A DNA stretch of 42,886 nt from Bacteroidales bacterium. Lineage in GTDB: Bacteria; Bacteroidota; Bacteroidia; Bacteroidales; UBA932. The stretch is taken from the NCBI GenBank assembly GCA_017938925.1, contig JAGBAO010000006.1, positions 1 to 42,886 of the forward strand, given 5' to 3'. The stretch's first letter is position 1. Every line of letters starts with the position of its first letter. Below the pieces are notes generated by a model, which was not told where the DNA came from, ran no database searches, and saw only the letters and a program-made list of their open reading frames with translations. Both the position numbers and the translations under genes were made by a program. Positions 1,802 to 42,173 of the stretch are shown piece after piece.

Positions 1802-3760
1802 ATGATCAACATTACATTTCCTGACGGCAGCGTGAGACAGTACGAAAGCGGAGTCTCAGCGTTTGACATTGCACAGAGTATCAGCCCAAGACTTGCAGCG
1901 GACGTGTTGGCTGCAACGGTAGTGACGACATCTGACGCGACAGGAAAGGGTACGATATATGATGTGACTCGCCCCATAAACGAGGACGCGGCCATCAGGC
2001 TCCACAAGTGGGAGGATCCGGAGGCGAAGCATGTGTTCTGGCATTCTTCTTCACACCTTCTTGCTGCAGCACTTGAGGCTCTTTATCCAGGCGTGAAGTT
2101 CGGTATCGGACCAGCAATCGAGACAGGTTTCTACTATGATGTGGACTTCGGTGAGAAGACTCTCGTGGAGGCGGATCTCAAGGCTATCGAGGACAAGATG
2201 ATCGAGCTGGCACGTCAGAAGAATCCGTTCGTAAGGACAGAGGTTTCAAAGGCTGATGCGCTCAAGACCTTCACCGAGAAGGGAGACGAGTACAAGTGCG
2301 AGCTTATCAGCGAACTTGAGGACGGCAGCATCACATTCTACAGCAACGGTGACTTCACCGACCTGTGCCGCGGACCTCATCTCAAGGATACATCGGTAAT
2401 CAAGGCGGTAAAGCTGACTGCAATAGCAGGTGCATATTGGAGGGGTGACGAGAAACGCCCTATGCTGACCCGTGTATATGGTGTGTCATTCCCTAAGAAG
2501 TCTCTCCTCGATGAGTATCTTGTGATGCTTGAGGAGGCCAAGAAGCGTGACCACAGAAAGATCGGCAAGGAGATGGAACTCTTCACATTCTCTCAGAGAG
2601 TGGGACAGGGCCTTCCGTTGTGGCTTCCTAAGGGAGCGGCTCTTCGCGAGCGTCTTGAGAACTTCCTCAGAAAGCTTCAGAAGTCATATGGCTATCTTCA
2701 GGTCGTTACTCCGCACATCGGAAACAAGGATCTTTACGTGACTTCAGGTCACTATGCAAAATACGGCAAGGACTCGTTCCAGCCGATCCACACTCCGCAG
2801 GAAGGCGAGGAGTATCTGCTCAAGCCGATGAACTGTCCTCACCACTGCGAGATCTACAGGACAAAGCCGCATTCATACAAGGAACTCCCTATCAGGCTTG
2901 CAGAGTTCGGTACCGTGTACCGTTACGAGCAGAGCGGAGAGCTTCACGGACTCACCCGTGTGCGCAGCTTCACTCAGGATGACGCCCACCTGTTCTGTCG
3001 TCCGGATCAGATCAAGGAGGAGTTCTGCAAGGTCATCGACATCATCCTTTATGTGTTCAAGACCTTGAACTTCAACGAGTACGTTGCACAGATCTCTCTC
3101 CGTGACCCTAACAATACAGAGAAGTACATCGGTTCGGACGAGAACTGGGAGAAGGCTGAGGCAGCCATCATCGAGGCAGCAACAGAGAAGGGCCTCAACA
3201 CGGTGGTAGAGTATGGCGAGGCTGCATTCTATGGTCCTAAGCTCGACTTCATGGTGAAGGATGCCATCGGAAGAAAATGGCAGCTCGGAACAATCCAGGT
3301 GGACTACAACCTTCCTGAGCGTTTCGAACTCGAATATGTCGGAAGCGACAACCAGAAGCATCGTCCGGTGATGATTCACCGTGCACCGTTCGGATCCCTT
3401 GAAAGATTCGTCGCTGTCCTTCTCGAGCACACAGGTGGAAGACTCCCTCTCTGGCTCACTCCGGATCAGGTTAACATCGTGCCAGTCAGCGAAAAATATG
3501 AGGAATATGCAAAAAAAGTTTGTGATTTGCTGAATAATTCCGATATTCGCGCCGCCGTTGATGATCGTAACGAGACACTCGGCAAGAGAATCCGTGAGAG
3601 TGAACTCAAGAGGATTCCTTTCCTTGTGATTGTAGGTGAGAAGGAGATGAATGAAGGAACGGTATCTGTCAGAAGACAGGGTGGAATAGACGCAGGTTCT
3701 ATGCCGGTTGAGGATTTCGTCGCTCTTGTAAGCGATGAGGTCAAGGCTCAGCTGTCATAG
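1802..3760 (+). CDS. thrS: Threonyl-tRNA synthetase
   Basis: A 652-aa class II aminoacyl-tRNA synthetase that charges tRNA-Thr and edits mischarged Ser-tRNA. The TGS domain covers about residues 1-62. The editing domain carries HSSSH (H81, H85). The catalytic core contains MNCPHHC with the zinc-ligand Cys345, a class II motif 2 region ([20 protein letters not shown]) and motif 3 ([11 protein letters not shown]). The C-terminal anticodon-binding domain starts near residue 545. Length is typical for the family. A -7 box at 1755-1762 lies 40 bp upstream of the ATG. It heads the conserved thrS-infC-rpmI-rplT order. Confidence 0.98.
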
Positions 3761-3788
3761 CGTATTTATATTTATTAACTTAACTTAT

Positions 3789-3805
3789 AGGAGGAACTTT
3801 TTATC
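3789..3805 (+). promoter_or_regulatory. Shine-Dalgarno site and ATC start codon of infC
   Basis: A perfect AGGAGG at 3789-3794 stands 8 nt before an in-frame ATC at 3803-3805. The frame continues without a stop into the recognisable IF3 sequence, and no ATG, GTG or TTG sits at a suitable distance. A strong SD is unusual in this phylum. Rare AUU/AUC starts on infC are the known basis of IF3 autoregulation in other bacteria. Confidence 0.85.
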
Positions 3806-4408
3806 GCAGCACCATTTAGACCCGGTCCACGCCCGAGCGGCCCAAGACCGAACGCCAATCGTCCAGGCCAGAAGCCTATGAACGGAAAGAAGGACGATGA
3901 CGGATTGAGAATCAACGAGGAGATCACAGCCTCACAGGTACGTCTCGTAGGAGATAACATTCCTGAACAGGGAGTGTACTCGCTCAGGGATGCCCTGAGG
4001 ATGGCTGATGAGCAGAATCTCGATCTGGTGGAGATAAGCGCGAAGGCGGATCCTCCTGTATGTAGGATCATGGACTATCAGAAGTATCTCTATCAGCAGA
4101 AGAAGAAAGCTAAGGAGATGAAGGCCAATGCGGCCAAGATAGTCATCAAGGAGATCAGGTTCGGCCCGAATACGGATGAGCACGATTTCCAGTTCAAGCT
4201 CAAGCACGCGCAGGAGTTCCTGCAGGAGGGCTCGAAGGTGAAGGCCTCGGTCTTCTTCAAGGGACGCTCCATCATCTACGCGGACCAGGGAGAGAAGCTT
4301 CTTCTCCGTTTTGCAGTTGAGCTCGAGGAGTACGGTAGAGCAGAGCAGATGCCTAAGCTTGAAGGAAAGAGGATGATCATGATGATCGCCCCGCTTAAGA
4401 AAAAGTAA
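3803..4408 (+). CDS. infC: Translation initiation factor IF-3
   Basis: IF-3 binds the 30S subunit, prevents premature subunit joining and checks the start codon and initiator tRNA. From the ATC start the protein is 201 aa: a Pro/Arg-rich N-terminal extension (about 1-27), the IF3 N-domain ([15 protein letters not shown] and [10 protein letters not shown]), a Lys-rich linker helix ([14 protein letters not shown]) and the C-domain ([17 protein letters not shown]). Starting at the first ATG (3878) would drop 25 residues that are in frame and follow an ideal SD, so the ATC is preferred. It lies 42 nt after thrS and ahead of rpmI-rplT, the standard order. Confidence 0.95.
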
Positions 4409-4456
4409 TCCAAGAGATTGGAGAACAAATAATTATTAACTAAATCAAATTTAACT

Positions 4457-4651
4457 ATGCCAAAGATGAAGACCAACTCCGGTTCAAAAAAGCGTTTCAC
4501 GCTTACCGGAACGGGAAAAGTTAAGAGAAAGCATGCTTTTAAGAGCCACATTCTCACAAAGAAGACCAAGAAGCAGAAGAGAAATTTGACTCACATCGGA
4601 CTCGTAGCGAATGTTGACGAGAAGAGGGTCAAAGCTTTGTTGGGTATGTAA
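4457..4651 (+). CDS. rpmI: 50S ribosomal protein bL35
   Basis: A 64-aa, strongly basic protein with the family signature [14 protein letters not shown] at the N-terminus and a [16 protein letters not shown] block. It is a small constituent of the large ribosomal subunit. It sits between infC and rplT, with 48 nt upstream that contain no obvious promoter, so it is probably cotranscribed with infC. Confidence 0.97.
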
Positions 4652-4745
4652 TTCGTGACGGATTACGAAGTAATTTTAAGTTAAACTTGGAACGCAGTCG
4701 AAAAGCTCCTAAGAAGGACACTGCCTCCATAAATCAGTTAAATTT
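4652..4745 (+). promoter_or_regulatory. rpmI-rplT intergenic region with a small hairpin
   Basis: The 94-bp gap contains a short inverted repeat (TTCGT at 4652-4656 with ACGAA at 4665-4669). In other bacteria bL20 represses its own operon by binding leader RNA near this position. The hairpin here is small, and no match to a known bL20 leader can be asserted by eye. Confidence 0.25.
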
Positions 4746-5090
4746 ATGCCAAGATCGGTAAATTCAGTTGCCTCAAGGGCACGCCGCAAGAAAATTCTTA
4801 AGAAAACCCGCGGTAATTTCCTCGCAAGAAGGAACGTATGGACGGTAGCAAAGAACACCTATGAGAAGGGTCTTACCTATGCATACCGTGACCGTAAGAA
4901 CAAGAAGCGCACATTCCGCGCACTTTGGATCCAGAGAATCAACGCTGCCGCACGTCAGTACGGTATGACTTATTCTCAGCTTATGGGTCGCATCGCAAAG
5001 CAGAACATCGGTCTCAACCGTAAGGTGCTTGCTGACCTTGCTATGAACAACCCTCAGGCATTTGAGGCTGTTATCAATTCTGTAAAATAG
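4746..5090 (+). CDS. rplT: 50S ribosomal protein bL20
   Basis: A 114-aa protein of typical length, needed early in 50S assembly. The N-terminal basic extension includes [19 protein letters not shown] and [14 protein letters not shown]. The globular part carries [20 protein letters not shown] and the Y-S[22 protein letters not shown] region. It is followed 9 nt later by lepB in the same direction. Confidence 0.98.
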
Positions 5091-5099
5091 TTTGAGCTG

Positions 5100-6443
5100 A
5101 TGAGCTTGAAGGAACTATACCACAACAAGTGGGTGAGGTTCGGATTCTGGTCTGTCCTCTATGTGTTGTGGGTTATCTGGCTCGGAAACTACTGGTGGCT
5201 CTTCGGACTTATCCCTATCTTCGACGGACACATCACAAAAAAGGTGAAGTGGCTCTTCTGGAAGAAGGAGTATAAGGAAGGAGAAAAGAGGAACGCCCTT
5301 CTTGACTGGCTTGATGCAATAATCTTTGCAGTCGTGGTCGTTACTTTCATCAACACCTTTTTCTTCCAGGCTTTCAAGATTCCTTCATCCTCGATGGAGA
5401 GTTCGCTCTACACAGGTGACCACCTGTTCGTGAGCAAGCTCGCATATGGTCCAAAGCTCCCGCAGACACCTTTGACCATCCCGTTCACTCATAATGTCAT
5501 AGCTGGCAAGGAGTCATATTCGACACTTATTCAGAATGACTATAAGAGGCTCAAGGGATTCGGACAGGTCGAGACAGGGGATTATGTCGTCTTCGGATTT
5601 CCGCATGGTGACACAGTTCTTGTGAGGGAGCCTGCAAGTGACTACTACATGTATGTAAGGACATACGGCCGTGAATACACTCTGAAACATTTCGGTCCAG
5701 TGAAGGCCAGACCGGCCGACAAGAAGGATCACTACGTGAAAAGATGTGTGGCAGTCGCGGGAGATACTCTCGAGATCAGAAACGGTCAGGTGTATGTCAA
5801 TTCAGTGGCTCAGGAGGTATGGCCCGGAGTGCAGAACTCGTACAGGGTCGTTACCAACGGTCAGAAGATCAACCCGGTCAATCTCGACAAGCTCGGATTG
5901 AACACAAGGGAACTCTGGTATCATCCTGAACTGCCTGGATACCCTGAGATGGCACTTACTGCAGAAATGCTGGAAAAGGTCAAGGGATATGCAAATGTAG
6001 AGTCAGTGACGCAGAACATAGACGTATGGCCGGCAGATTATCCGGATTCGGAGCTGACCATCTTCCCGTTCTCGTCTCAGTACAGATGGACACGTGATAA
6101 TTATGGACCGCTTTGGATCCCTGAGAAGGGAGCGACGGTGGAACTGACAACGGATAACCTTCCGCTTTATGAGAGAATCATCACAGCATACGAAGGAAAT
6201 TCACTTGAGGTCCGCGACGGTGTCATATACATCAACGGGGAAGAGGCTCGAAGCTACACTTTCAAGCAGGATTATTATTTCATGATGGGAGACAACAGGC
6301 ACAATTCTCTCGACTCGCGTTACTGGGGATTCGTACCTGAAGATCATATAGTCGGAAAGCCCGCATTGATCTGGCTCTCAATCGATGGGAACAAAAGATT
6401 CCCGCATAATATTAGATGGCGGAGGTTCTTCAAATTTGTATAG
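5100..6443 (+). CDS. lepB: Signal peptidase I
   Basis: The membrane peptidase that removes signal peptides from secreted proteins. Of 447 aa, two N-terminal hydrophobic segments (about 14-40 and 70-92) precede the catalytic box IPSSSM, where Ser98 is the expected nucleophile. The general base Lys214 lies in YVKRCVAVAGDTLEI. The conserved box MMGDNRHNSLDSRYWG and the terminal VGKPALIW lie near the C-terminus. A long insertion between the Lys box and the GDN box (about 235-375) makes it larger than the E. coli enzyme, which is common in Bacteroidota. The start is 9 nt after rplT; a new promoter begins downstream. Confidence 0.96.
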   Translation: MSLKELYHNKWVRFGFWSVLYVLWVIWLGNYWWLFGLIPIFDGHITKKVKWLFWKKEYKEGEKRNALLDWLDAIIFAVVVVTFINTFFFQAFKIPSSSMESSLYTGDHLFVSKLAYGPKLPQTPLTIPFTHNVIAGKESYSTLIQNDYKRLKGFGQVETGDYVVFGFPHGDTVLVREPASDYYMYVRTYGREYTLKHFGPVKARPADKKDHYVKRCVAVAGDTLEIRNGQVYVNSVAQEVWPGVQNSYRVVTNGQKINPVNLDKLGLNTRELWYHPELPGYPEMALTAEMLEKVKGYANVESVTQNIDVWPADYPDSELTIFPFSSQYRWTRDNYGPLWIPEKGATVELTTDNLPLYERIITAYEGNSLEVRDGVIYINGEEARSYTFKQDYYFMMGDNRHNSLDSRYWGFVPEDHIVGKPALIWLSIDGNKRFPHNIRWRRFFKFV

Positions 6444-6447
6444 AAAT

Positions 6448-6479
6448 TTTGCAATTGCGATTTTTTTATGCGATATTTG
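6448..6479 (+). promoter_or_regulatory. Promoter of rpmB-rpmG-DUF4295
   Basis: TTTG at 6448-6451 and GATATTTG at 6472-6479 (seven of eight consensus positions by form) are 20 nt apart, the normal Bacteroidota spacing. Transcription would start near 6486, about 34 nt before the rpmB ATG. Confidence 0.7.
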
Positions 6480-6519
6480 CAGCCCGCTAAAAATGAATTA
6501 ATTAAAAAAGTTATATACA

Positions 6520-6762
6520 ATGGCAAAGGTTTGTCAAGTTACAGGAAGAAAGAGAATGGTTGGAAACAACGTTTCCCATTCTAAGAGACGCACAAAGCGT
6601 ATCTTCGCCCTCAACCTCAAGACCAAGAAGTTCTGGTCAGAGGAGGAGCAGAGATTCATCACCCTCAAGGTGTCTTGCAAAGGTATGAGAACAATCGAGA
6701 AGAACGGTCTCGACGCTACAATCAAAGACGCTCAGAAGAAAGGATTTATTAACCTTGTTTAA
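6520..6762 (+). CDS. rpmB: 50S ribosomal protein bL28
   Basis: An 80-aa basic protein with the family signature [20 protein letters not shown] followed by [19 protein letters not shown]. It is a constituent of the large ribosomal subunit. It is first in a three-gene unit with rpmG (11 nt downstream) and DUF4295, under its own promoter. Confidence 0.98.
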
Positions 6763-6773
6763 TTTTCAGGATT

Positions 6774-6962
6774 ATGGCAAAGAAAGCAAAAGGTAACAGG
6801 GTGCAGGTCATCCTTGAGTGCACTGAGCAGAGAGAGAGCGGTGTACCAGGTATCTCAAGATACATCACTACAAAGAACAAGAAGAACACAACTCAGCGTC
6901 TGGAGCGTAGGAAGTACAATCCGTTCCTGAAGAAGGTAACCCTTCATCGCGAGATTAAATAA
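6774..6962 (+). CDS. rpmG: 50S ribosomal protein bL33
   Basis: A 62-aa large-subunit protein. [46 protein letters not shown] match bL33. The zinc-binding CxxC pairs of the C+ form are missing (the only Cys is in LECTE), so this is the zinc-free type. It is cotranscribed with rpmB and the DUF4295 gene. Confidence 0.97.
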
Positions 6963-6979
6963 TTAGGAGGAATTAAGAT

Positions 6980-7135
6980 ATGGCAAAGAAAGCAGTCGCA
7001 ACCTTCAAGGCTGGTACGCTCAAGAAGATGGTTAAGTGTATCCGCATGGACAAGTCGCCAAAGACTGGAGCTTATGTTTTCACAGAGGAGCTCGTTGAGG
7101 AAGACAAGACTAAGGAATTCTTCGCAAAGAAATAA
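6980..7135 (+). CDS. DUF4295 family small protein
   Basis: A 51-aa basic protein beginning MAKKAVATFKAGTLKKMVK and ending EFFAKK. It matches the Bacteroidota DUF4295 family, which is nearly always encoded after rpmB-rpmG. Function is unproven; size, charge and context suggest a ribosome-associated protein. An AGGAGG at 6965-6970 lies 9 nt before the ATG, unlike most neighbouring genes. The product is short enough to be missed by gene callers with a length cutoff. A terminator follows 20 nt downstream. Confidence 0.9.
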   Translation: MAKKAVATFKAGTLKKMVKCIRMDKSPKTGAYVFTEELVEEDKTKEFFAKK

Positions 7136-7155
7136 TTCTTTCTTGTGATATGTTG

Positions 7156-7192
7156 AGTGGCAGTGCTGAATATCAGCATTGCCACTTTTTTT
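7156..7192 (+). terminator. Terminator after the DUF4295 gene
   Basis: AGTGGCAGTGCTGA pairs with TCAGCATTGCCACT around a two-base turn region, with one G-T wobble, followed by a run of seven Ts. It closes the rpmB-rpmG-DUF4295 unit. Confidence 0.92.
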
Positions 7193-7208
7193 ATACGTCA
7201 AAAATCAT

Positions 7209-7231
7209 TACATTTGTAGGTTATAACTTTG
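7209..7231 (+). promoter_or_regulatory. Promoter(s) of ftsY
   Basis: Two -7 type boxes lie in series: TACATTTG at 7209-7216 and TAACTTTG at 7224-7231. Use of the second would give an essentially leaderless transcript, because the ATG is at 7239. No convincing -33 TTTG is present for either. Confidence 0.55.
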
Positions 7232-7238
7232 ATTTTGT

Positions 7239-8177
7239 ATGGGAATATTCGATAAAGGCGTCAAGAAGACGAACAGGAGTTTTTTCGACAGGCTTTCAAG
7301 GGCTATCGTGGGAAGGACGGAGGTGGACGATGATGTGCTGGATGCCATCGAGGAGGCGCTGCTTGCGACAGATATGGGTGTGGATACAACTCTCAAGATC
7401 ATAGAGAATCTGGAGGAACGTGTCCGTCAGGACAAGTATGTTTCCCTTGACGAACTTGTGGATATCTTACGTGATGAGATAGCTGTCCTTCTGAACGTCC
7501 GCGAAGGTGAGGATACTGATGAAAAGGTCATTCCTTTTGATTTCTCGAAGAAACCTTATGTGATCATGGTTGTGGGAGTGAACGGAGTAGGCAAGACCAC
7601 GACCATAGGCAAGCTCGCGAGCAACCTCAAGGCACAGGGCAAGAAAGTGGTTCTTGGAGCTGCGGATACTTTCAGGGCAGCGGCAGTGGATCAGCTGACA
7701 GTGTGGGCAGAGCGTGCCGGTGTCGATCTTGTCAAGCAGCAGATGGGGTCAGATCCGGCTTCGGTTGCCTTTGATACCGTAAAGTCGGCTGTTGCCAAAG
7801 ATGCGGATGTCGTGATCATTGACACGGCAGGGCGACTCCATAACAGGGTGGACCTTATGAACGAGCTTACCAAGATACGCAATGTCATGAGGAAGGTCAT
7901 TCCGGATGCGCCGCATGAAGTCCTGCTTGTCCTGGACGGATCGACCGGGCAGAATGCATATATGCAGGCAAAGGAGTTTGCGCGTGCGACAGACATAACG
8001 GCATTGGCAGTCACGAAGCTTGATGGCACGGCAAAAGGTGGCGTGGTAGTGGGAATCGTGGACCAGTTCAAGGTGCCGATCAAGTTCATAGGAATCGGAG
8101 AAGGTATAGATGACCTGAAGGTCTTCGACAAACGTGAGTTTGTGGGTTCGCTCTTTTCGAAGGAAGATATAGAATAA
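7239..8177 (+). CDS. ftsY: Signal recognition particle receptor FtsY
   Basis: The SRP GTPase that docks SRP-ribosome complexes at the membrane for cotranslational insertion. In 312 aa it has an N-domain helical bundle (about 1-95) and the G-domain: GVNGVGKTT (113-121), GAADTFRAAAVDQL, DTAGR (195-199) and TKLDGTAKGG (259-268). The acidic A-domain of E. coli FtsY is absent, as is usual in Bacteroidota. pheT follows 49 nt downstream. Confidence 0.97.
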   Translation: MGIFDKGVKKTNRSFFDRLSRAIVGRTEVDDDVLDAIEEALLATDMGVDTTLKIIENLEERVRQDKYVSLDELVDILRDEIAVLLNVREGEDTDEKVIPFDFSKKPYVIMVVGVNGVGKTTTIGKLASNLKAQGKKVVLGAADTFRAAAVDQLTVWAERAGVDLVKQQMGSDPASVAFDTVKSAVAKDADVVIIDTAGRLHNRVDLMNELTKIRNVMRKVIPDAPHEVLLVLDGSTGQNAYMQAKEFARATDITALAVTKLDGTAKGGVVVGIVDQFKVPIKFIGIGEGIDDLKVFDKREFVGSLFSKEDIE

Positions 8178-31256: not shown

Positions 31257-32405
31257 ATGAAACGGATTTTGATGTCTATGGCAGCTCTGGCTGCAATCGC
31301 GGGACTATTCTCATGTGGAACGGAATATGAAAAGCCGACAGAAGGCTCCCAGAAGGGATTTGCCCTGTCTTTCTTCAAGCATGTCAATGCAACTGTCGAG
31401 GCTGGCGAGAACGTTGTCGTGTCTCCTTACAGTGCAGGTGTTGCCCTGTCAATGGTAGCTGAGGGTGCTGAGGGTGAAACAAGGGTAGAGTTCGACAATG
31501 CTCTCAACGGATGTCTTTTCAAGGCGGTGGATCTGGGAAGCAATGACACTGTGGTCGTGAAGTCGGCCAACTCTGTGTGGGTTGATGATGATTTCAGCAT
31601 CAGAAACAGATATGTGGACATGCTGCAGAAGGATTTTGACGCGATGGTCGTCAATCTGAACTTTGCAGATCCTGCGACTGTGCGGGCAATCAATAACTGG
31701 TGCTCGGAGAACACGGCAGGAAAGATAACCGAAATCGTGGAGCGTCTGGAGCCTGGTATGGTCATGATGCTGGTCAATGCCTTGTATTTCAATGCTCCGT
31801 GGGCTGAGGCGTTCCCGGTCAGGAACACCCATGAGGCTGTCTTTCATGGATCTGAAGGCGATGTGACCGTCCCTATGATGTCAAGAACAGATTATATGAA
31901 CTACGCGGAATATCAGGGATGTCAGATGGTGGAACTGCCTTATAAGGGGGAAAGATACTCGATGTACGTCGTCCTGCCTGCGGCCGGTATGTCACCGGAC
32001 AAGATGCTCTCATATGTGAATGAGGGACTTTACGATCAGGCCATGTCCATGATGAATCCGAAGAAGGTGAAACTCACCATGCCGAAGCTCAAGCTTGAGA
32101 CTTCCATGATACTCAACAAGCCTCTGCAGAATATGGGGCTGAAGACAGCCTTCACTGCTGCGGCTGACTTCAAGGGAATATCCCAGATGGGACCTCTCGT
32201 GCTGAATCAGGTGAAGCAGAAATGCTATATCGATGTTTCAGAGAAGGGAACCGAGGCTGCAGCCGTGACAAGCGTGGGTGTCAGACTGACCTCTGCCCGC
32301 CCTGAAATCGTGGTCAGCATGAATGTCGACAGACCATATCTGTTCTTTATTTCTGACCGCACAAACGGCAATATCCTGTTTGCAGGAAAGGTCGTGACTT
32401 TATAA
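31257..32405 (+). CDS. Serpin lipoprotein
   Basis: A 382-aa serine/cysteine protease inhibitor of the serpin fold with a lipoprotein signal (MKRILMSMAALAAIAGLFSC, Cys20). Family markers: NVVVSPYSAGVALSMVAEGA, MMLVNALYFNAPWAEAF, YKGERYSMYVVLPA. The reactive loop hinge GTEAAAVTSV is small-residue rich, as in inhibitory serpins. It is followed by GVRLTSARPE and the closing DRPYLFFI. Counting from the hinge Glu, the scissile bond falls near R-L-T-S. It sits 12 nt after AmpG and 4 nt before NamZ. It is probably surface-exposed and aimed at host or competitor proteases, by analogy with Tannerella miropin. Confidence 0.93.
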   Translation: MKRILMSMAALAAIAGLFSCGTEYEKPTEGSQKGFALSFFKHVNATVEAGENVVVSPYSAGVALSMVAEGAEGETRVEFDNALNGCLFKAVDLGSNDTVVVKSANSVWVDDDFSIRNRYVDMLQKDFDAMVVNLNFADPATVRAINNWCSENTAGKITEIVERLEPGMVMMLVNALYFNAPWAEAFPVRNTHEAVFHGSEGDVTVPMMSRTDYMNYAEYQGCQMVELPYKGERYSMYVVLPAAGMSPDKMLSYVNEGLYDQAMSMMNPKKVKLTMPKLKLETSMILNKPLQNMGLKTAFTAAADFKGISQMGPLVLNQVKQKCYIDVSEKGTEAAAVTSVGVRLTSARPEIVVSMNVDRPYLFFISDRTNGNILFAGKVVTL

Positions 32406-32409
32406 TAAT

Positions 32410-33660
32410 ATGATGAAGAGACTGTTAGTATTCATATCCATTCTGGCATGCATAAATTGCAGTGCCTCCCATCCTGTGGTAAAGACCGGAGTCGAGGTGC
32501 TGCGCGATCGGGGTTTTGAAGGCCTGGTCGGAAAGAGGGTCGGGCTGGTGACCAATCCCAGCGGAGTGGACAGCCGCCTGAAATCGACAATCGACATCCT
32601 GAATGAAGCCCCGGGGGTGGAACTTGTCGCTCTCTATGGTCCTGAACATGGGGTCAGGGGAGAGGTCTATGCCGGCGGGAAGGTGGACACCTTTACGGAT
32701 CCGGCCACCGGACTTCCTGTATATTCCATCTACGGATCCACAAGGAAACCCACTCAGGAAATGCTTGAAGGCATTGATGTCATGGTCTATGACATCCAGG
32801 ATGTGGGAGTACGTTCCTATACCTTCATCAGCACCCTCGGACTTGTGATGGAAGCCTGCGCTGAAAAGGGCATTGAAGTCATGGTGCTGGACAGACCTAA
32901 CCCTTTGGGAGGTAACAAAATAGAAGGATGCTACGTGGAGCAGCCGTTCAACTCCTTTGTAAGCCAGTACCGGATTCCGTATGTTTATGGGCTCACTGTC
33001 GGAGAACTTGCGGTGATGATCAACGAAGAGGGACTGAACAGAGGTCAGAAAGGAGGCCAGGCTCCTGCCAGGTGTCGTCTGAAGGTTATTCCGATGGAGG
33101 GCTGGACCCGTGATATGCTGTACGAAGACACAGGACTGCCATGGGTGCTCCCGTCTCCGAACATTCCGTTCAAGGAATCCCCTATGTACTATGCTGCCTC
33201 CGGAGTGTGCGGTGAGCTGTACGGCTTCATGAATATTGGGATAGGATATACCCTTCCGTTCCAGGTCTTCGGAGCGACCTGGCTCGACCCGGAAAGTCTC
33301 ATGAAGACTCTTGAAGGATATGAACTTCCGGGGGTGTCGTTCAGGACCATTTGGTACAAGCCGTTTTCCGGCAGTCTGAAAGGCCAGCTTGTGGGAGGAT
33401 TGCAGTTCTTCTTTACGGACTATGAAAAGGCCCGTCTGACGGAAGTCCAGTTCATGGTGATGCAGGCAGTGGCACAGCTCTATCCGGATAAGAAGGCATT
33501 TGAAACAGTGAGCGGAATAGGCCTCTTCGATAAAGTCTGCGGAACGGATCAGATAAGACTGAAGTTCTCGGAGAACTACCGTTTCGATGACATCAGGGAC
33601 TACTGGCGCAAGGACGAACCCGCCTTCAGGAAACTGTCTGGGAAATATTACCTCTATTAG
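32410..33660 (+). CDS. namZ: DUF1343 exo-beta-N-acetylmuramidase (NamZ/YbbC type)
   Basis: A 416-aa secreted GH171 enzyme. NamZ proteins release terminal MurNAc from the non-reducing end of peptidoglycan fragments. Family phrases: KRVGLVTNPSGVD, LYGPEHGVRGEVYAGGKV, PVYSIYGSTRKPTQEM, MVYDIQDVGVRSYTFIST, VLDRPNPLGG, and TGLPWVLPSPNIP. The N-terminus MMKRLLVFISILACINCSAS is a signal peptide, possibly lipoprotein. Its 3' end overlaps the convergent murI stop by 4 nt. With SpoIID and AmpG neighbours it points to peptidoglycan turnover. The symbol is by family. Confidence 0.9.
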   Translation: MMKRLLVFISILACINCSASHPVVKTGVEVLRDRGFEGLVGKRVGLVTNPSGVDSRLKSTIDILNEAPGVELVALYGPEHGVRGEVYAGGKVDTFTDPATGLPVYSIYGSTRKPTQEMLEGIDVMVYDIQDVGVRSYTFISTLGLVMEACAEKGIEVMVLDRPNPLGGNKIEGCYVEQPFNSFVSQYRIPYVYGLTVGELAVMINEEGLNRGQKGGQAPARCRLKVIPMEGWTRDMLYEDTGLPWVLPSPNIPFKESPMYYAASGVCGELYGFMNIGIGYTLPFQVFGATWLDPESLMKTLEGYELPGVSFRTIWYKPFSGSLKGQLVGGLQFFFTDYEKARLTEVQFMVMQAVAQLYPDKKAFETVSGIGLFDKVCGTDQIRLKFSENYRFDDIRDYWRKDEPAFRKLSGKYYLY

Positions 33661-35684: not shown

Positions 35685-36965
35685 ATGAGACGTTTGATTA
35701 TGATCGTAGTCGCGGCCCTGTCTTTTGCACATTTTTCTCCGGCGCGCGACGTTAAGGCTGTGCATACGGGAAATGACGCATTTTCCGTAAAGGCGCAGGC
35801 ATTCATGGGAACATATCTTGACCCCAGTGGCAATATAGTTGACATAGATCCCAACGCTCCCACCGGTCTGAATTTCGGTGTTGAGTTCCCTTCGTCAAGG
35901 CAGCGCCCGTGGCAGCAGTATCTGAATGACCCTACCGTGGGACTCGGCCTGACATATATGAATCTCGGCAACGATGTGATGGGTGAGGGACTGGCATTGT
36001 ATCCTTATATAATGCTTAACGCCCTCCGTGTACCTCATTTCCATGCGAAAATCAAGCTGGCCTCAGGCCTGGCTGCTCTCAACGGCCATTATAAGGCTAC
36101 TGTCAAAGAGGAAATCCCCAATGAAACATTCGGTTCCATGTTCAATGTCTTTCTCAGCGGGGGACTGAACCTGGATTTCCCGATCAACCGCAATCTCACC
36201 ATCAACGCAGAGGTGGGATTCAACCATATAAGCAACGGCCGTATCTCGGAGCCGAACAAGGGAGCTAACATCCTTTATGGCGGTGTCGGACTTATTGCGA
36301 CTGTCAATCCGACTGAGGATGAGGCCAGGGTGCCGAAGCGTTTCCCGAGCCTTCCTTATAAGTGGAGCCTGAACATAACAGGGGCTGCCGGAGCACAGAA
36401 CGCGGATATGACGGACGCCGGCAAGTTCCTGATCTCGACTTTCCATGTGGGAGGAATATATAATGTGACCAACTGGTACGGAGTGGGTCTGGGAATGGAT
36501 GTATTCTTCAATGACGCGATCGGAAACGTGACCAACCGAGGCCTCTTCTGCAGGAAGCATGAATATTCTAATGCAGACAAGACCCGCGTGGGTATATCCT
36601 GGAACAACGAACTTCAGTTCGGAGATGTCACCGCCATGGTCGATTGGGGACTTTATCTTGTGAATCCTGCACGTAATTTCTACAATTTCGATCACGAGAG
36701 GACAGGATGCGACACAAAGATTCCGCTGTTCTACAAGACGGACGGAGCCGGCAGTCAGGAGGCATGCCACTATATCCGTTTCGGTGTCAAGTACAGGGTG
36801 TGGGACAACATCTATCTTCAGGCTCTTGCCAAGACCCACCGTCATATAGCCGAGTGCATCGAGTTCGGAGTCGGCTACCAGATCCCGTTCCTGCGCAAGT
36901 CCTCACGCCGTGATGATTCGGTTGTTTTCCATCACCGTCGCGGCTGGTGGGAGAATTATGATTAA
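35685..36965 (+). CDS. PagL-like acyloxyacyl hydrolase (lipid A deacylase)
   Basis: A 426-aa outer-membrane protein with signal MRRLIMIVVAALSFAHFSPA. The core near residues 60-250 shows barrel-like strands (VGLGLTYMNLGNDVMGEG, FHAKIKLASGLAAL). It includes the PagL catalytic motif H-x-S-N in FNHISNGRISEPNKGAN (His181, Ser183). PagL enzymes remove acyl chains from lipid A in the outer membrane. The protein is about twice the length of proteobacterial PagL, as usual in Bacteroidota, with extra strands after ~230. Its last ~63 nt overlap, on the other strand, the 3' end of the truncated DUF4255 gene. Substrate is inferred from family only. Confidence 0.82.
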   Translation: MRRLIMIVVAALSFAHFSPARDVKAVHTGNDAFSVKAQAFMGTYLDPSGNIVDIDPNAPTGLNFGVEFPSSRQRPWQQYLNDPTVGLGLTYMNLGNDVMGEGLALYPYIMLNALRVPHFHAKIKLASGLAALNGHYKATVKEEIPNETFGSMFNVFLSGGLNLDFPINRNLTINAEVGFNHISNGRISEPNKGANILYGGVGLIATVNPTEDEARVPKRFPSLPYKWSLNITGAAGAQNADMTDAGKFLISTFHVGGIYNVTNWYGVGLGMDVFFNDAIGNVTNRGLFCRKHEYSNADKTRVGISWNNELQFGDVTAMVDWGLYLVNPARNFYNFDHERTGCDTKIPLFYKTDGAGSQEACHYIRFGVKYRVWDNIYLQALAKTHRHIAECIEFGVGYQIPFLRKSSRRDDSVVFHHRRGWWENYD

Positions 36966-37391
36966 CCTGACTGCTGTGGCCCAGATATTATGGAAGTCGA
37001 ATATAGGAACTGTTTCCAGTGTCAATGAGTATTCAACATCATCTATTCTGAATCGATGATTGGACTGAATGAACGCCAATGCAGTAGAGAATATTGATAA
37101 TGATTCGGCATACTGCTTCTCCTCGAACACAGCGGCAAACATTACCTTCAGATTCAAAAGGAACGGTGCTGCCGAGGAGGTATAACCGCCATTCGCCGTC
37201 CTGACATTGGCAGCAATGCCACCGGCTGTCTCACGCTCAAGATTTACCAATGAAACGATGATCTTGTTTGGCGTTTCACCAGTACTCTGGCCGATATGGC
37301 CCACCTCAGCCAACCCTTCGGGGCGGTGGTGGTATCGGCTCAAGTAACCATTGAGCTGGTCTGCGCAATATGTCAGCACTTTCTTAATCAT
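36903..37391 (-). pseudogene. DUF4255 (Pvc16-like) gene, 3'-truncated
   Basis: The first ~140 residues look like DUF4255 proteins: MIKKVLTYCADQLNGYLSRY, KIIVSLVNLERET, APFLLNLKVMFAAVFEEKQY, AESLSIFSTALAFIQSNHRF and IFDFHNIWA. These proteins cap the inner tube in extracellular contractile injection systems. Family members continue after the (H/Q)xxW helix with a WxxLGxxYxPSxxYKxR-type ending. Here the frame changes to an unrelated basic/hydrophobic tail that is simply the antisense of the PagL 3' end. The gene therefore seems cut at about 36966-36980. No sheath, tube or baseplate gene is present. It starts inside the AraC-type gene (8-nt overlap). Confidence 0.65.
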
Positions 37392-37797
37392 TATCTTTAT
37401 TTATCTCTACATTTTCTATTTTCCACTCATCCGGAGTCTGTCCGGTTATCTTAACGAATGCCTGTTTGAATGAGGCCGGGTGCGGTTGCCCTACCTTATA
37501 ACCGATGTCATATATCGACATTTCGGGATGACTAAGCATCAACCGCTTCGCTTCCTCAATCCTGAGGTTATTAAGCCAAGGCACGAAGGTCGTATCTTCC
37601 GCTTTACGGATGTAGAAAGACAGATAGGCACTGTTGGTTCCCAACTCTGCTGCAACATCTTTCAACTTCAATCCGTGACGGCGATAGTGCTTATGCCTCT
37701 TCCATTCGTTTACATTTTTTCCAATTTCCTTTATCTTTTCTGAAAATGTCGGTTTCGGGGGTTTAATTACATATCTATCCCAATTCGTATCCGGCAT
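37384..37797 (-). CDS. Short AraC-type HTH protein
   Basis: A 137-aa protein. Residues ~40-128 form an AraC/XylS double helix-turn-helix domain: LKLKDVAAELGTNSAYLSFY as the first unit and MSIYDIGYKVGQPHPASFKQ as the second, ending KITGQTPDEWK. The N-terminal 35 residues (NWDRYVIKPPKPTFSEKIKE) contain no sensor domain. It may be the complete small regulator or the detached end of a larger sensor-regulator. It is 39 nt downstream of the fimbrillin-LRR gene and overlaps the DUF4255 start by 8 nt. Confidence 0.8.
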   Translation of the reverse strand: MPDTNWDRYVIKPPKPTFSEKIKEIGKNVNEWKRHKHYRRHGLKLKDVAAELGTNSAYLSFYIRKAEDTTFVPWLNNLRIEEAKRLMLSHPEMSIYDIGYKVGQPHPASFKQAFVKITGQTPDEWKIENVEINKDND

Positions 37798-37836: not shown

Positions 37837-39450
37837 TTAATTTACAAACGAGATTGACTTGAATGTGAAACTCACATCTTCTCCGTCCGGGGTTTTCGTA
37901 GTCCAAGTATTGCCGCTCACTTGACTCTGCTTGTTGGTATGGAGTACAAGATTCACTTCCTCATCAAGCAATTCATTATCCACCCACCAAAAACATTTTT
38001 CGTCAAGGGTAATATCCGAATCAGCAGTCAAATAAATCGTTACTTCCGTATCAGGATCCACAACATCCAGTGCAAGCTGTCCCACAGTTGTAACCTTTGG
38101 CAATTTAATGCTTGTCAATGCCCTACATTCGTAAAACGCGATATATTCAAGTGTAGTCGCTTCGGGCAATTCCACAGTAACAAGACCGGTCATGGTAAAC
38201 GCACCCTCATGAACAATCTGTACTTTTGGAGCATACAACGATGTAAGATTTTTGCAATAATAAAAAGCATAATCGCCTACGGTCACAGCATCAGGCAGAC
38301 TGATACTTCTCAATTCCGCAACGGCCTCACTCATCTGGATACTTCCCGGCTCTTCGAAACGACCAAAGAGAGGATAAGATGTGCTGTTATCCGGAATTGC
38401 GGTCACACCGGCAAGAGTAAGGTCAACGCTGCCGTCGGCAATGTCTGCCTCAACGAGAGCCTCGCGGATAGCGGTGAACATCTCGGCAGAAGCATCGGTG
38501 GAAAGGGTGACTGTTATTTCGGTGCGACTTGCCGCAAGCAATTCTGCTACGGCGGTCTTCAAGTTTTCGGCGGTCATATCAGTGGCATCGACATTGTAAT
38601 ATTCCTCGGCAGTGCCACCGTTAATAGGGTCATCCATATTCTCCCAATCAGCCACTCTCACATCACCCATAGTCACAGCATCCCGACCAACTTTCAGTTC
38701 GACGGTATAAGCGGCACCGGAAGCCAAGCCCTCCGTAGCAGAAGCCGTAGCCTTGAATACACGGCCACTATTCATGGTCACTATAACGGACATGGATGCC
38801 GTTCCGGGAAGCAGCAAAGCGGAATAATCGGCATCGGCAGAGATTGTACCAGTATTGGTGGTAGAGTTTACCCATGAATCAGCAGCCAATGTCCATGTAG
38901 CAGTCAAAGGTACATCGGCAAAAGCAATGGATGCTACACTTTCACCTGTAACTTCCGTACCTGTTCCCGTCACGCTTACCGTCACTTTACTGAGGCGATG
39001 TGACATATTGAGGGAAATTTCACTGCTGGTCAATGCCGTAGATGAAGCGGCATACAAGTAATCCGTCTGTGTGGTCAGGTCAACGGTAATTGTTCCGTCA
39101 TCGGCATCATCGGTAAACGGAGAATAAGCGTATGCCTTCTGTGTGGAATTAGTGCCTTCGTAAAGCACCTTTCCGTCCGTGGGAGTCCAGTTGCCGTCCT
39201 CATCGCCCGTCCACTTCATATTGGCAGCCTTGTATTTTGCATCGGTCTTATCGCTGGTCACGAAAAGTCCGAGGTCGGCATCCACCAATTTGCCTTCGTC
39301 AGTAATGGCACGTGTGGGGAGCAGTTCGGCCACATTCGTACTTAGGGTAATCGGGGTGTCCTTGGTATTGTCAATCCCCAAATCATCGTTGTTCTTGTCG
39401 CAGGCCACCAACGCGAGGGCAGCTGCTGCCATTGTTAGATACTTTTTCAT
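37837..39450 (-). CDS. Fimbrillin-family lipoprotein with BspA-like leucine-rich repeats
   Basis: A 537-aa lipoprotein (MKKYLTMAAAALALVAC, Cys17). Residues ~30-270 match the fimbrillin-like Mfa_like_1 region: PITLSTNVAELLPTRAITDE, AYAYSPFTDDADDGTITVDL, SLNMSHRLSKVTVSVTGT. After a linker (about 285-355) come about four BspA/LRR_5 repeats (~365-480) of the pattern L-x-x-I-x-L-P-x-x-x-x-V-x-x-x-A-F-x-x-C, e.g. SISLPDAVTVGDYAFYYCKN and SIKLPKVTTVGQLAL. BspA repeats bind host matrix proteins or other bacteria in Tannerella and Treponema. Fusion to a fimbrillin suggests an adhesin-tipped surface protein. It is cotranscribed with the 391-aa fimbrillin (36-nt gap). Confidence 0.82.
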   Translation of the reverse strand: MKKYLTMAAAALALVACDKNNDDLGIDNTKDTPITLSTNVAELLPTRAITDEGKLVDADLGLFVTSDKTDAKYKAANMKWTGDEDGNWTPTDGKVLYEGTNSTQKAYAYSPFTDDADDGTITVDLTTQTDYLYAASSTALTSSEISLNMSHRLSKVTVSVTGTGTEVTGESVASIAFADVPLTATWTLAADSWVNSTTNTGTISADADYSALLLPGTASMSVIVTMNSGRVFKATASATEGLASGAAYTVELKVGRDAVTMGDVRVADWENMDDPINGGTAEEYYNVDATDMTAENLKTAVAELLAASRTEITVTLSTDASAEMFTAIREALVEADIADGSVDLTLAGVTAIPDNSTSYPLFGRFEEPGSIQMSEAVAELRSISLPDAVTVGDYAFYYCKNLTSLYAPKVQIVHEGAFTMTGLVTVELPEATTLEYIAFYECRALTSIKLPKVTTVGQLALDVVDPDTEVTIYLTADSDITLDEKCFWWVDNELLDEEVNLVLHTNKQSQVSGNTWTTKTPDGEDVSFTFKSISFVN

Positions 39451-39486: not shown

Positions 39487-40662
39487 TTATTCATTGATTT
39501 CTTCTTCAACTTCTCCACCATCTATAGTACCGCCGTCGGCCCAGTCGTTGACTGTTACCTTGCCGACTGTCAGCACATCGTCAAGATAGAGGTGGAAGGT
39601 GTAGAGGTCGCTGGTCTGCCAGTCGTATGAACCGGTCGCCTCTTTGAATACCTCACCGCTGAGTTCGTATGTGAAATATTTGTACTCACCTTGTGCCGCA
39701 GTGCCTGTCAGGTCTTGTGCGATGAGGGTGAAACGCAAGGTGCTGTTCTGGAATGGATTTTCAGAACCCACAGGGAATACAGGAGCATAGAGGAAAACAT
39801 TGTCTTCGACAATCAGCCCACCATCGGCAAGGTTCACCTGTATGCCTTTGCCATCTGTTGCCGGGGTGTACACAAAACCCTCGGATGTGTAACTTGCAAG
39901 GCTGCCGGAAGCGGGAACTGCATTGCCGCCGGTATCTACAACCTCTAACTTCACACCATAGAGCGTGGCAGGCTCTCCTCGCCAGTTATAGACCTTGAAG
40001 CGGATGTAGGAGGCAAGGTGGGCGAAGTCGAGCGATGCAGTGCTACCTTCAAGTACATCAGTTGCATACATATACATATAGTCGCTCAGGTGTGCCAAGT
40101 TGTTTTTCCCCGATTGGGTGAAGGTCGTTGGCATCTGGAGCACTGCGTTGATTTTGGCTTTATTATCCTCAATCTTAACCTCCACCTGTGAGTTGTTGAC
40201 ATCGTTTATAGGTGTAACGGCATACACATTGTATCTGTCAAACACATCGTCAGTCCATTCGGGGGCAAAGCCTTCTATGGTCTCAAACTCGGCCCAATGC
40301 TTATCATCCGCCTTCGCAGGATCGGTATGTTGCAGGATTCTCGCTTGTGTAACAGATGATAATTCACTATTCATTAAGTAATCGCCTTCATCGTTAATAA
40401 AAGCCATCTTTAAGTCTGATGTCGTGGCATTAGGTTCCTGATAATCCCACGCGAAGGTGAGCTTGCCGTCGTTGTTGTCCGTCCATGTAGCACGGGTGGC
40501 AGCATTGTCATCGCCCACGCTGCCGCTGAATCGCAGATGATATTGCGCAGTCGGGGTATCGGGCGTATCGGGAGTGTCCGGGCCGATGTCATCGTTGTTG
40601 CAAGAGACAAAGAGTCCTGCCACAGCCGATGTAAATATGAATGTTCTTAAAATGCTTCTCAT
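39487..40662 (-). CDS. Fimbrillin-family lipoprotein
   Basis: A 391-aa lipoprotein (signal MRSILRTFIFTSAVAGLFVSC, Cys21), then a DTPDTPDTP spacer. The body is fimbrillin-like: YHLRFSGSVGDDNAATRATW (ATRAT resembles the Arg-protease cleavage region of type V pilins), LTFAWDYQEPNATTSDLKMA, ASLDFAHLASYIRFKVYNWR, and the closing TVGKVTVNDWADGG strand. It is probably a pilin or surface adhesin subunit. It follows the 54-aa small protein by 18 nt. No Mfa2-type anchor gene lies nearby. Confidence 0.85.
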   Translation of the reverse strand: MRSILRTFIFTSAVAGLFVSCNNDDIGPDTPDTPDTPTAQYHLRFSGSVGDDNAATRATWTDNNDGKLTFAWDYQEPNATTSDLKMAFINDEGDYLMNSELSSVTQARILQHTDPAKADDKHWAEFETIEGFAPEWTDDVFDRYNVYAVTPINDVNNSQVEVKIEDNKAKINAVLQMPTTFTQSGKNNLAHLSDYMYMYATDVLEGSTASLDFAHLASYIRFKVYNWRGEPATLYGVKLEVVDTGGNAVPASGSLASYTSEGFVYTPATDGKGIQVNLADGGLIVEDNVFLYAPVFPVGSENPFQNSTLRFTLIAQDLTGTAAQGEYKYFTYELSGEVFKEATGSYDWQTSDLYTFHLYLDDVLTVGKVTVNDWADGGTIDGGEVEEEINE

Positions 40663-40680: not shown

Positions 40681-40845
40681 TTATTGCTCCCACAAGTTGC
40701 CCCATTCTTTACGGTATTCGTTGGTTTTACGTTCGCCAAAGTTATGGTTGCCCTCTGTGTCATTGCCGTAACCACTTGTAGATATCATTTGTGTCACACC
40801 TACATTGACTATCGTACTCTTAGACTTGATATACTCCTTTTTCAT
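40681..40845 (-). CDS. Small protein B, 54 aa, with TSGYGNDTE core
   Basis: A 54-residue frame starting MKKEYIKSKSTIVNVGV and carrying TSGYGNDTE and FGER, followed by a basic, Trp-containing tail (RKEWGNLWEQ). The core is shared with the small protein just upstream. There is no signal peptide or membrane helix. It lies 10 nt after that gene and 18 nt before the fimbrillin gene, so it is cotranscribed. The frame remains open upstream through the first gene, but the ATG at 40845 begins the region that aligns with protein A. Function unknown. Confidence 0.7.
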   Translation of the reverse strand: MKKEYIKSKSTIVNVGVTQMISTSGYGNDTEGNHNFGERKTNEYRKEWGNLWEQ

Positions 40846-40855
40846 ATTTATTGGT

Positions 40856-40987
40856 TTAGAATCTTTCTCCAAATTCATAATAATCTTCCGTATCGTTGCC
40901 GTAACCGCTTGTGCAGAAACCGCCTTCAACTGCTACCTCAATAACCTCTATCTTTGGAGACTCATAGATGAACTGCTCATTCTTCAT
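40856..40987 (-). CDS. Small protein A, 43 aa, with TSGYGNDTE core
   Basis: A 43-residue frame: MKNEQFIYESPKIEVIEVAV, then GGFCTSGYGNDTE, DYYEFGERF and stop. The alternating IEVIEVAV stretch and the E-G-G turn divide a leader-like N-half from an acidic, Gly/Tyr-rich C-half, an outline seen in many short Bacteroidota proteins of unknown role. It is first in the accessory operon and shares its core with small protein B. It is too short for usual gene-calling cutoffs. A precursor-peptide or secreted-peptide role is conceivable, but no modifying or export enzyme is adjacent. Confidence 0.7.
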   Translation of the reverse strand: MKNEQFIYESPKIEVIEVAVEGGFCTSGYGNDTEDYYEFGERF

Positions 40988-41333: not shown

Positions 41334-42173
41334 ATGCTAAAATCTGTAAAAATTACAAATTGGAAGGGCGCAGCTCAGATGGCAAGTCGCAATAATGAGC
41401 ATGAAACCGGATTTGCGGATATTCTTGTGCGCAAAGGTGAGTGGTATGAGGATAGTTGTGCCAGACACTACTACATTCTGATGATAAAATCAGGTACAAT
41501 CAACCTGTCCTGCAGGATCTATCATAACCGACTGATAGAGACCGGAACGATGGCTCTCATTCCCAAAGGCGGAAAACTCGTGTTCAAAGCGGTGGAGGAA
41601 GCAAATATCATTATGTTCGCGTTCTCAAGCACCATCATCCGTACCGATAAGGAGATGCTGGACTATTTCTGTAAGTATGCTGGCAAAAAGGACTATACCT
41701 TCAATACGCTGCCAATATGCAAGGCAATAAATGATCTGATTAATCTCATAAGTTCTCAATTACACGAGCGTAAACTCAAACATAGCGGTATCTGCCATGT
41801 CTGGAACTCATATTTCTTCCATATGATGGTGGCATATTATGGTAAGGAAGAGATTACAGCATTCATGCGTCCCATCATATCTGCAGGAGCCGATTTCGAA
41901 TCGTTTATTGAGAACAACTATCTTGAAGCTGCCGGTAATGTATCGAGGTTAATCTCTCTTTCAGGGCTATCGGTTGTAGCATTCAACAATAGGTTCTTGT
42001 CCATTTACGGAATGAAACCCAAGAAATGGTTGGATGAAAAGCTCAAGACAAGGATTCTTGACCTTGCTGCGGAAGAAATGATGACTCCGGGACAGATTGC
42101 ACGCGAGATAGAAGTGACTCCACAGAGGTTTAACGACATAACCAACCGTTTTTGGGGGTCACATCATTCATGA
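41334..42173 (+). CDS. AraC-type transcriptional regulator
   Basis: A 279-aa regulator with an N-terminal cupin-like sensing region (about 25-110: HYYILMIKSGTINLSCRIYH, GTMALIPKGGKLVFKAVEEA) and a C-terminal helix-turn-helix domain (about 195-275: NVSRLISLSGLSVVAFNNRF, then YGMKPKKWLDEKLKTRIL and MTPGQIAREIEVTPQRFNDI). It is transcribed away from the small-protein/fimbrillin operon across the shared 346-bp region, the usual place for that operon's controller. Met16 at 41379 is an alternative start. Base composition is AT-richer than the following gene. It ends in an ATGA overlap with the DUF454 gene. Confidence 0.8.
   Translation: MLKSVKITNWKGAAQMASRNNEHETGFADILVRKGEWYEDSCARHYYILMIKSGTINLSCRIYHNRLIETGTMALIPKGGKLVFKAVEEANIIMFAFSSTIIRTDKEMLDYFCKYAGKKDYTFNTLPICKAINDLINLISSQLHERKLKHSGICHVWNSYFFHMMVAYYGKEEITAFMRPIISAGADFESFIENNYLEAAGNVSRLISLSGLSVVAFNNRFLSIYGMKPKKWLDEKLKTRILDLAAEEMMTPGQIAREIEVTPQRFNDITNRFWGSHHS

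Follow-up and report, generated by a model that had tools for sequence, protein, structure and literature searches.

YxxP is a leader motif bound by several RREs, including those of the lasso type (PMC12710340, PMC13381572). The linear polyphosphorylated peptides (LPPs) are RiPPs that one report calls restricted to Bacillota (PMC13381572, 2026). The same report lists the LPP gene set as a SipW-like peptidase, a discrete RRE, an HprK-like kinase, an NTP transferase and an MsbA-like exporter, and describes precursors with a conserved YxxPxVLxHQxIxFETxxS N terminus and a variable C terminus (PMC13381572). In LPP maturation as outlined there, cleavage follows FET and Ser3 becomes polyphosphorylated; the Pro and Tyr of YxxP are held by N33 and D70 of the LPP RRE, LppB (PMC13381572).

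We analyzed two tandem small frames, P1 and P2, in a Bacteroidales genome; the window is the whole stretch of DNA that was analyzed (42,886 nt). P1 fits the description of an LPP precursor (35–200 aa, N-terminal YxxP, variable C terminus) and P2 does not. We tentatively favor the reading that P1 is one of about 30 dispersed orphan precursors recognized by an RRE that binds YxxP and, in genomes that have one, handled by an LPP-like cassette.

Tandem frames P1 and P2 and their neighbors

P1 (40856..40987, minus strand) encodes 43 aa from an ATG start (MKNEQFIYESPKIEVIEVAVEGGFCTSGYGNDTEDYYEFGERF) and is a canonical family member with the layout MKNEQFI-YESP-KIEVIEVAVEGGFCTS-GYGNDTEDYYEFGERF. Position-wise family counts place its leader motif (YxxP...EGxxCxS) at Y8 to S27 (40907..40966, minus strand). 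The composition of 94 tails and the codons of P1 and P2 place the variable acidic tail, or "core", at G28 to F43 (40859..40906, minus strand), with the putative leader/tail boundary between the two. P2 (40681..40845, minus strand) is a tandem copy with a longer C terminus, encoding 54 aa from its ATG; its frame is open beyond this codon and would amount to 82 aa if counted from an upstream TTG. Eighteen nucleotides separate the stop of P2 from the ATG (40662) of the first lipoprotein gene. The initial annotation had described two tandem frames of 43 and 54 aa, 10 nt apart, and this arrangement was confirmed on the minus strand.

The leader Pro and Cys are gone from P2, and the TSGYGNDTE/FGER core is retained. 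Both strings are identical in P1 and P2 and stand in the same register in an ungapped alignment from the conserved Tyr, in agreement with the earlier description of a shared nine-residue core followed by FGER at the matching place. Among the 13 common codons, seven differ synonymously, six are identical and none differs nonsynonymously, whereas the remaining aligned codons, counted from the conserved Tyr up to the penultimate P1 residue, include 18 nonsynonymous differences and one synonymous. Fisher's test of this contrast gave 1.2e-5, a value that is optimistic because the core segment was picked for being identical. The synonymous bias supports the annotation's proposal of a duplication with selection on the core, and it points to selection acting on the peptide tail itself. 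We propose that P1 and P2 arose by tandem duplication, with both tails kept by selection and the P2 leader decaying.

The emphasis on the core stood only in part: it is under selection in P1 and P2, but the part conserved across the family is the N-terminal leader, and the TSGYGNDTE core was found at this locus only. The 960 stop-to-stop frames of at least 25 aa in the window were also searched with leave-out profiles. With the profile lacking P1 (93 peptides), P1 scored E 3.6e-12 and the next-best frame 0.049; with the profile lacking every peptide of its own genome (68 peptides), the values were 3.8e-13 and 0.28. P2 reached E 4.1 only with the former profile and was unlisted at E ≤ 10 with the latter, and the case for its kinship is its similarity to P1 (E 2.1e-6, in an alignment crossing one stop). 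Both P1 and P2 look like genuine genes, and the score of P1 bears out the annotation's view that these are not chance frames.

The first lipoprotein (39487..40662, minus strand; 391 aa) has a weak fimbrillin-like N-terminal domain, with an Mfa1 match (NF038041) below the cut-off (20.5 of 130 bits, E 2.4e-4) and no Pfam match. Profile A4 matched it, but A4 was built including this protein; its AlphaFold model was unusable (mean pLDDT 40.7), and as a query against the named genomes it gave no confirmed match. The second lipoprotein (37837..39450, minus strand; 537 aa) carries Mfa_like_1 (PF13149, E 1.9e-32) and LRR_5 (PF13306, E 4.9e-11), and A4, which was built without it, matched at E 4.3e-9. 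The annotated fimbrillin-family assignment holds for the second lipoprotein and is weak for the first, which has the sub-cutoff Mfa1 match only.

Downstream on the same strand lie genes for an AraC-type HTH protein (37384..37797, minus strand; 137 aa; PF12833, E 1.2e-15) and, at the end of the run, a Pvc16_N-like protein (36903..37391, minus strand; 162 aa; PF14065, E 4.1e-11). The latter gene overlaps the former and is an odd neighbor for fimbrillin genes to have as the last member of their operon. A divergent 279 aa frame (41334..42173, plus strand) may encode an HTH regulator, based on sub-cutoff HTH matches only. Elsewhere in the window (31257–33660), a bacterial serpin gene adjoins a NamZ muramidase gene. 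Among 27 scanned window frames, P1 and P2 included, none of the LPP gene set (SpI, RRE, HprK, NTP transferase, MsbA-like exporter) was found beside P1; a Peptidase_S26 protein and a radical SAM protein are encoded 27–34 kb from it. The statement that no modifying enzyme is adjacent holds at P1 and P2, but a candidate peptidase-RRE-exporter cassette exists elsewhere, in related genomes.

The peptide family and its surface-protein partners

P1 alone as a query matched 12 places in its own genome (rated 91.9% complete) at E ≤ 10, P1 and P2 included, several of which showed the pattern Y..P.........EG..C.S with a large lipoprotein next. Profile A1, six of whose 12 rows came from this genome, gave 30 matches there; 28 were judged members by eye and two (C32:62705, C10:19829) were discarded by eye as noise. 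Four extra members stand before lipoproteins first thought to be peptide-free (L198, L199, L203, L205), and the member at C15:6631 is a frame without ATG. Two of the 28 are identical copies inside a repeat of 10.6 kb. This repeat is identical between two contigs (C5 from 285897, C13 from 25400; L094/L095/L202/L390), peptide-lipoprotein pair included, and reflects either a recent duplication or assembly redundancy.

At E ≤ 0.1, A1 had matches in 96 of 120 same-genus genomes (own included), with the most in the own genome and up to 15 in relatives. A draw from the order gave a family match in 15 of 393 genomes (own included) at E ≤ 0.01. In a phylum-wide draw of 392 genomes with profile A2, the sole match was the own genome; this result says little because only five other same-order genomes were among those listed. 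Searches of P1, P2 and the 12 A1 rows against Pfam and NCBIfam gave no match save one row at E 0.049, and a PDB search with the peptide profile gave none. The family was not found described in the titles and abstract openings of the literature searched, and its motif strings occurred in none of the papers of that literature. One member (L241) comes from a bin labeled Oscillospiraceae, on a contig that is probably misbinned Bacteroidales DNA. At L143:1504-2613, a YxxP peptide is in frame, without a stop, with a lipoprotein signal sequence, possibly a natural fusion or a sequencing error.

Family members are 34–60 aa long. Numbered from the conserved Tyr as position 0, the 26 own-genome peptides have Tyr and Pro in all, Glu13 in 20, Gly14 in 22, Cys17 in 24 and Ser19 in 24. 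Across all 94 unique peptides the counts are Tyr 94, Pro 94, Glu 87, Gly 89, Cys 91 and Ser 92. These include 50 unique peptides from named bins with all six residues in 50/50, where the scan pattern required Glu, Gly and Cys and YxxP was present in 50/50, and 18 others picked with a pattern requiring YxxP. The leader also carries a strand-like EVIEV stretch, and no signal peptide was seen in the family peptides. Tails are net negative in 94/94 unique peptides and contain Cys in one of 94; in 81 of 94, at least one of the final three residues is W, F, Y, I or L.

In the own genome, 26 of 28 members are followed at −61 to +22 nt by a lipoprotein-like frame of 446–1124 aa; the exceptions are P1, where P2 intervenes, and C15:9035, where a lipoprotein frame is not adjacent. 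We assembled 103 loci (26 own, 53 from named bins that are mostly from rumen, and 24 others), corresponding to 94 unique peptides because some places occur twice (L014/L019, L013/L021). This set omits the C13 copy identical to C5, C15:9035, 11 of 35 other-genome loci (one repeat and ten unrecognised by the pattern) and all 24 order-draw loci, about half of which, by eye, precede a lipoprotein. The next frame has a Sec-type signal at 100 of the 103 loci (100/104 if C15:9035 is included), with a lipobox-like pattern in 96; these counts come from a crude rule that let in at least one protein lacking a lipobox (L240), and by eye at least five partners have none (L226, L229, L231, L233, L240). The exported frame lies at −68 to +45 nt in 98 of 103 loci. 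Two Sec-exported partners fall outside this range, those of P1 (193 nt) and L015 (205 nt, a doubtful call), and no exported frame was called at L223, L258 and L260, the last because the contig ends.

The A4 domain was matched (E ≤ 1e-3) by 49 of 74 downstream proteins from other genomes and not by the remaining 25. PF13149 was found at E ≤ 0.01 in only three of 27 lipoproteins scanned. The own genome has 13 places where PF13149 matches above the cut-off, six of them within peptide operons; no peptide match lies near the three PF13149 genes of C18. Homologues do occur before fimbrillin-like genes, and the partners are broader, being Sec-exported surface proteins. Relatives with W-D/E-rich tails (L141, L146, L155, L158), from G635 and G793 in another family of the order, were seen just behind large surface-protein-like genes. 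Thirteen of 27 own peptides sit 7–38 nt behind a same-strand frame of at least 90 aa, and the idea that the peptides mark transcript starts was rejected on this basis.

By comparison of sequences, these data establish a family of small peptides with a fixed leader (YxxP, EVIEV, EGxxCxS) and an acidic tail, encoded as a cistron just before a Sec-exported surface protein. We consider it nearly certain that the members are real small genes and that the family is abundant and coupled to surface proteins. In 19 close pairs (slightly below 19 independent ones, given repeated loci), pN/pS was 0.26 for the leader and 0.40 for the tail; by this measure both parts are under purifying selection and the tail evolves faster.

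The peptide could be a cytosolic partner that associates with the surface protein of its own operon prior to export, or an adaptor that binds the ribosome, SecA or R (the PqqD-like RRE), with the tail giving client specificity. The close spacing of exported frames fits this explanation, and tail similarity tracked the similarity of the mature surface proteins (Mantel r 0.51) more than leader similarity did (r 0.14; 82 de-duplicated loci); given the signal peptide, the tail correlation was 0.39 (64 loci). A tail and a downstream client are common to P1 and P2, and no exporter or peptidase would be needed, as in the own genome. However, plain co-inheritance could also produce the tail-partner correlation, some almost identical tails stand before dissimilar mature proteins (L234/L253, L229/L231/L233), and the link to an RRE cassette is left unexplained. 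We regard this explanation as somewhat unlikely. At C15:6631 and C15:10367 (L104), the tails and the partner signal peptides are similar but the mature parts are not, a picture that 5' shuffling would give, and L229/L231/L233 and L234/L253 resemble this case.

A cis-acting leader frame, whose translation would couple or tune the next gene while its sequence serves as a nascent chain or is incidental, is in our judgment improbable. The tight gap to the next start, commonly 10–20 nt, and the lack of a visible signal peptide would suit it. However, conservation is at the amino-acid level, with mixed synonymous codons at conserved residues, and the junction with the next gene was no more stable than shuffled sequences (mean z −0.03; 3 of 68 loci below −2). 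The 13 peptides that lie behind a same-strand frame are not at the transcript start, and the relatives in G635 and G793 come after the surface-protein gene.

Candidate RRE cassettes in related genomes

We denote the PqqD-like RRE as R, the SipW-like serine peptidase as S, the MsbA-like ABC exporter as T, the HprK-like kinase as K and the NTP transferase as N. The own genome has two PF05402 (RRE) matches, a 490 aa protein and a lone R of 88 aa, the latter sitting by eye between two glycosidase-like genes. No T was found anywhere in this genome at E ≤ 1e-60, and no S, K or N (tblastn, E ≤ 0.01) in the 1.56 Mb covered, a figure that counts overlaps and is at most 58% of the 2.67 Mb genome. The 490 aa protein, at C5:181911 (L197:4813-6469), joins its RRE domain to what by eye is a radical SAM part, and a small Cys-containing ORF (MKTYKKVV...) follows it; this looks like a separate RiPP locus.

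Peptide-rich same-genus genomes (the first 20 of 29 others with at least eight A1 matches) were compared with peptide-less ones (20 of 24 without an A1 match), uncorrected for common ancestry. PF05402 was present in 20/20 and 12/20, respectively (p 0.003). S, R and T together at the RRE locus were found in 17/20 and 3/20 (p 1.9e-5), with score thresholds for S and T set after the fact and with searched stretches of 8.6–16 kb in peptide-rich and 5.2–10 kb in peptide-less genomes. T anywhere in the genome was found in 19/20 and 12/20 (p 0.02), G104 being the peptide-rich genome without it. The compact operons that surround the RRE in many genomes read K-S-R-T, or S-R-T with or without N, and the exporter candidate scanned had no C39 peptidase domain among its Pfam matches.

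No family member was seen inside the K-S-R-T operons; the RRE contig of G073 bears one about 7 kb away. At L307, one strand encodes in a row a YVAP peptide of 52 aa, a lipoprotein of 738 aa without an A4 domain match, an RRE and an NTP transferase. RRE-NTP transferase pairs also occur in polysaccharide-like loci (L305, L309), so L307 may be a chance neighborhood. Its genome, G065, has no A1 match, which indicates that A1 misses such peptides and that the peptide-less label is imperfect. By eye, L315 (G121, 1910–7967) contains all five cassette genes and a radical SAM gene; the cluster comprises a YSSP-containing ORF of 141 aa and genes for radical SAM, kinase-like, S24-like, RRE, NTP transferase and ABC exporter proteins.

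The S proteins of relatives carry SMxPF serine and YVxHR histidine motifs in 6/6 examined. An Asp motif, the candidate counterpart of LppS D93, was MGDG by pattern in four of the six and GDG by eye in the other two; PF00717 matched above the cut-off in one, below it in one and not at all in another. By eye, Asn35 is present in 18 of 19 R proteins and Asp73 in 17 of 19, the own-genome R included. Compared with LppB, the Tyr-Asp spacing is equal and the Asn-Tyr spacing one residue longer, an equivalence by spacing with LppB outside the alignment. Peptide-less genomes have RREs with these residues as well (L304, L309, L312), and so do RREs of the lasso type. A PDB search with one RRE returned only TfuB1 (E 0.53).

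Another kind of RiPP precursor (lasso, or GG-leader/PCAT), or a peptide signal made by another enzyme, appears quite unlikely. YxxP is also a lasso RRE motif (PMC13381572, PMC12710340), and the C5:181911 protein is another RRE-bearing candidate in the own genome. However, a double-Gly cleavage site is absent (92 of 94 peptides have Ser at position 19, and position 18 is variable), the tails have no conserved ring acid, and the C5:181911 gene has its own small ORF beside it. That the frames arose by chance or are decaying, productless remnants is highly improbable, although P2 goes unrecognised by the family profiles, given the leave-out score of P1 and the purifying selection in the 19 pairs.

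The precursor reading and its relation to known systems

In the favored reading of P1 as a dispersed precursor, R would bind the YxxP leader. In genomes with the cassette, S would cut near the EG or CxS step, K or N may modify the peptide, and T would release the acidic tail, which would then act with the surface protein of the next gene. A cut after E-G would put Cys17 at core position 3, by analogy the position of the phosphorylated Ser in LppA. Signal peptidases follow a small-residue rule at the cut site, and a cut after C-x-S would suit it. The own genome has only R among the genes found, and so the later steps are doubtful there. A P2 core without a leader is unexplained by the precursor reading unless P2 is a remnant of selection in the past or its core has an intracellular role. 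Of the roles that the initial annotation had left open (peptide signal, pilus accessory, ribosomally made peptide precursor), the last is now the best supported and is still putative.

It is possible, if doubtful, that gut and rumen Bacteroidales possess a companion-peptide system in which one trans-acting RRE cassette, perhaps the RRE alone in some, serves many dispersed YxxP peptides, each paired in the genome with a single surface protein, fimbrillin-like or other, and each such surface protein being delivered with its own small acidic and possibly modified peptide. If so, an LPP-like peptide pathway would exist outside Bacillota, RRE cassettes without a local precursor would gain likely substrates, and a large unnamed set of small genes would have a testable role in surface building in gut and rumen bacteria. 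Whatever the mechanism, about 30 coupled small genes in the own genome, and up to 15 in relatives, match no tested Pfam or NCBIfam model.

The type V pilins and fimbrillins (Mfa_like_1, PF13149) are related to this family through the downstream lipoproteins, which often have a fimbrillin-like N-terminal region, whereas the peptide lacks a signal sequence and is no pilin. The GG-leader/PCAT peptides of Bacteroidales are likewise small precursors with a conserved leader and a variable core, in the same order, but the family lacks the double-Gly and the exporter scanned has no C39 peptidase domain among its Pfam matches (PMC10352776). Paeninodin-like lasso peptides share a YxxP leader bound by a discrete RRE and tailoring by HprK and NTP transferase (PMC13381572); the family tails differ in having neither the conserved Thr two residues before the core nor the ring Asp/Glu.

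The closest likeness in leader and machinery is to the LPPs (PMC13381572). We did not file the peptides as LPP members because, when looked for, neither co-location with the gene set nor the full leader consensus was found. LPP precursors lie within their clusters, one to three in each, whereas here they are orphans, about 30 in the own genome, each before a surface-protein gene. In place of the FETxxS of YxxPxVLxHQxIxFETxxS the family has E-G-x-x-C-x-S, and the operons of relatives usually hold four of the five genes, with only the RRE found in the own genome. On the other side, both precursor groups combine a YxxP N terminus with a variable C terminus, the candidate machinery in relatives draws on the LPP gene set, and the RRE pocket residues stand at near-equal spacing (PMC13381572).
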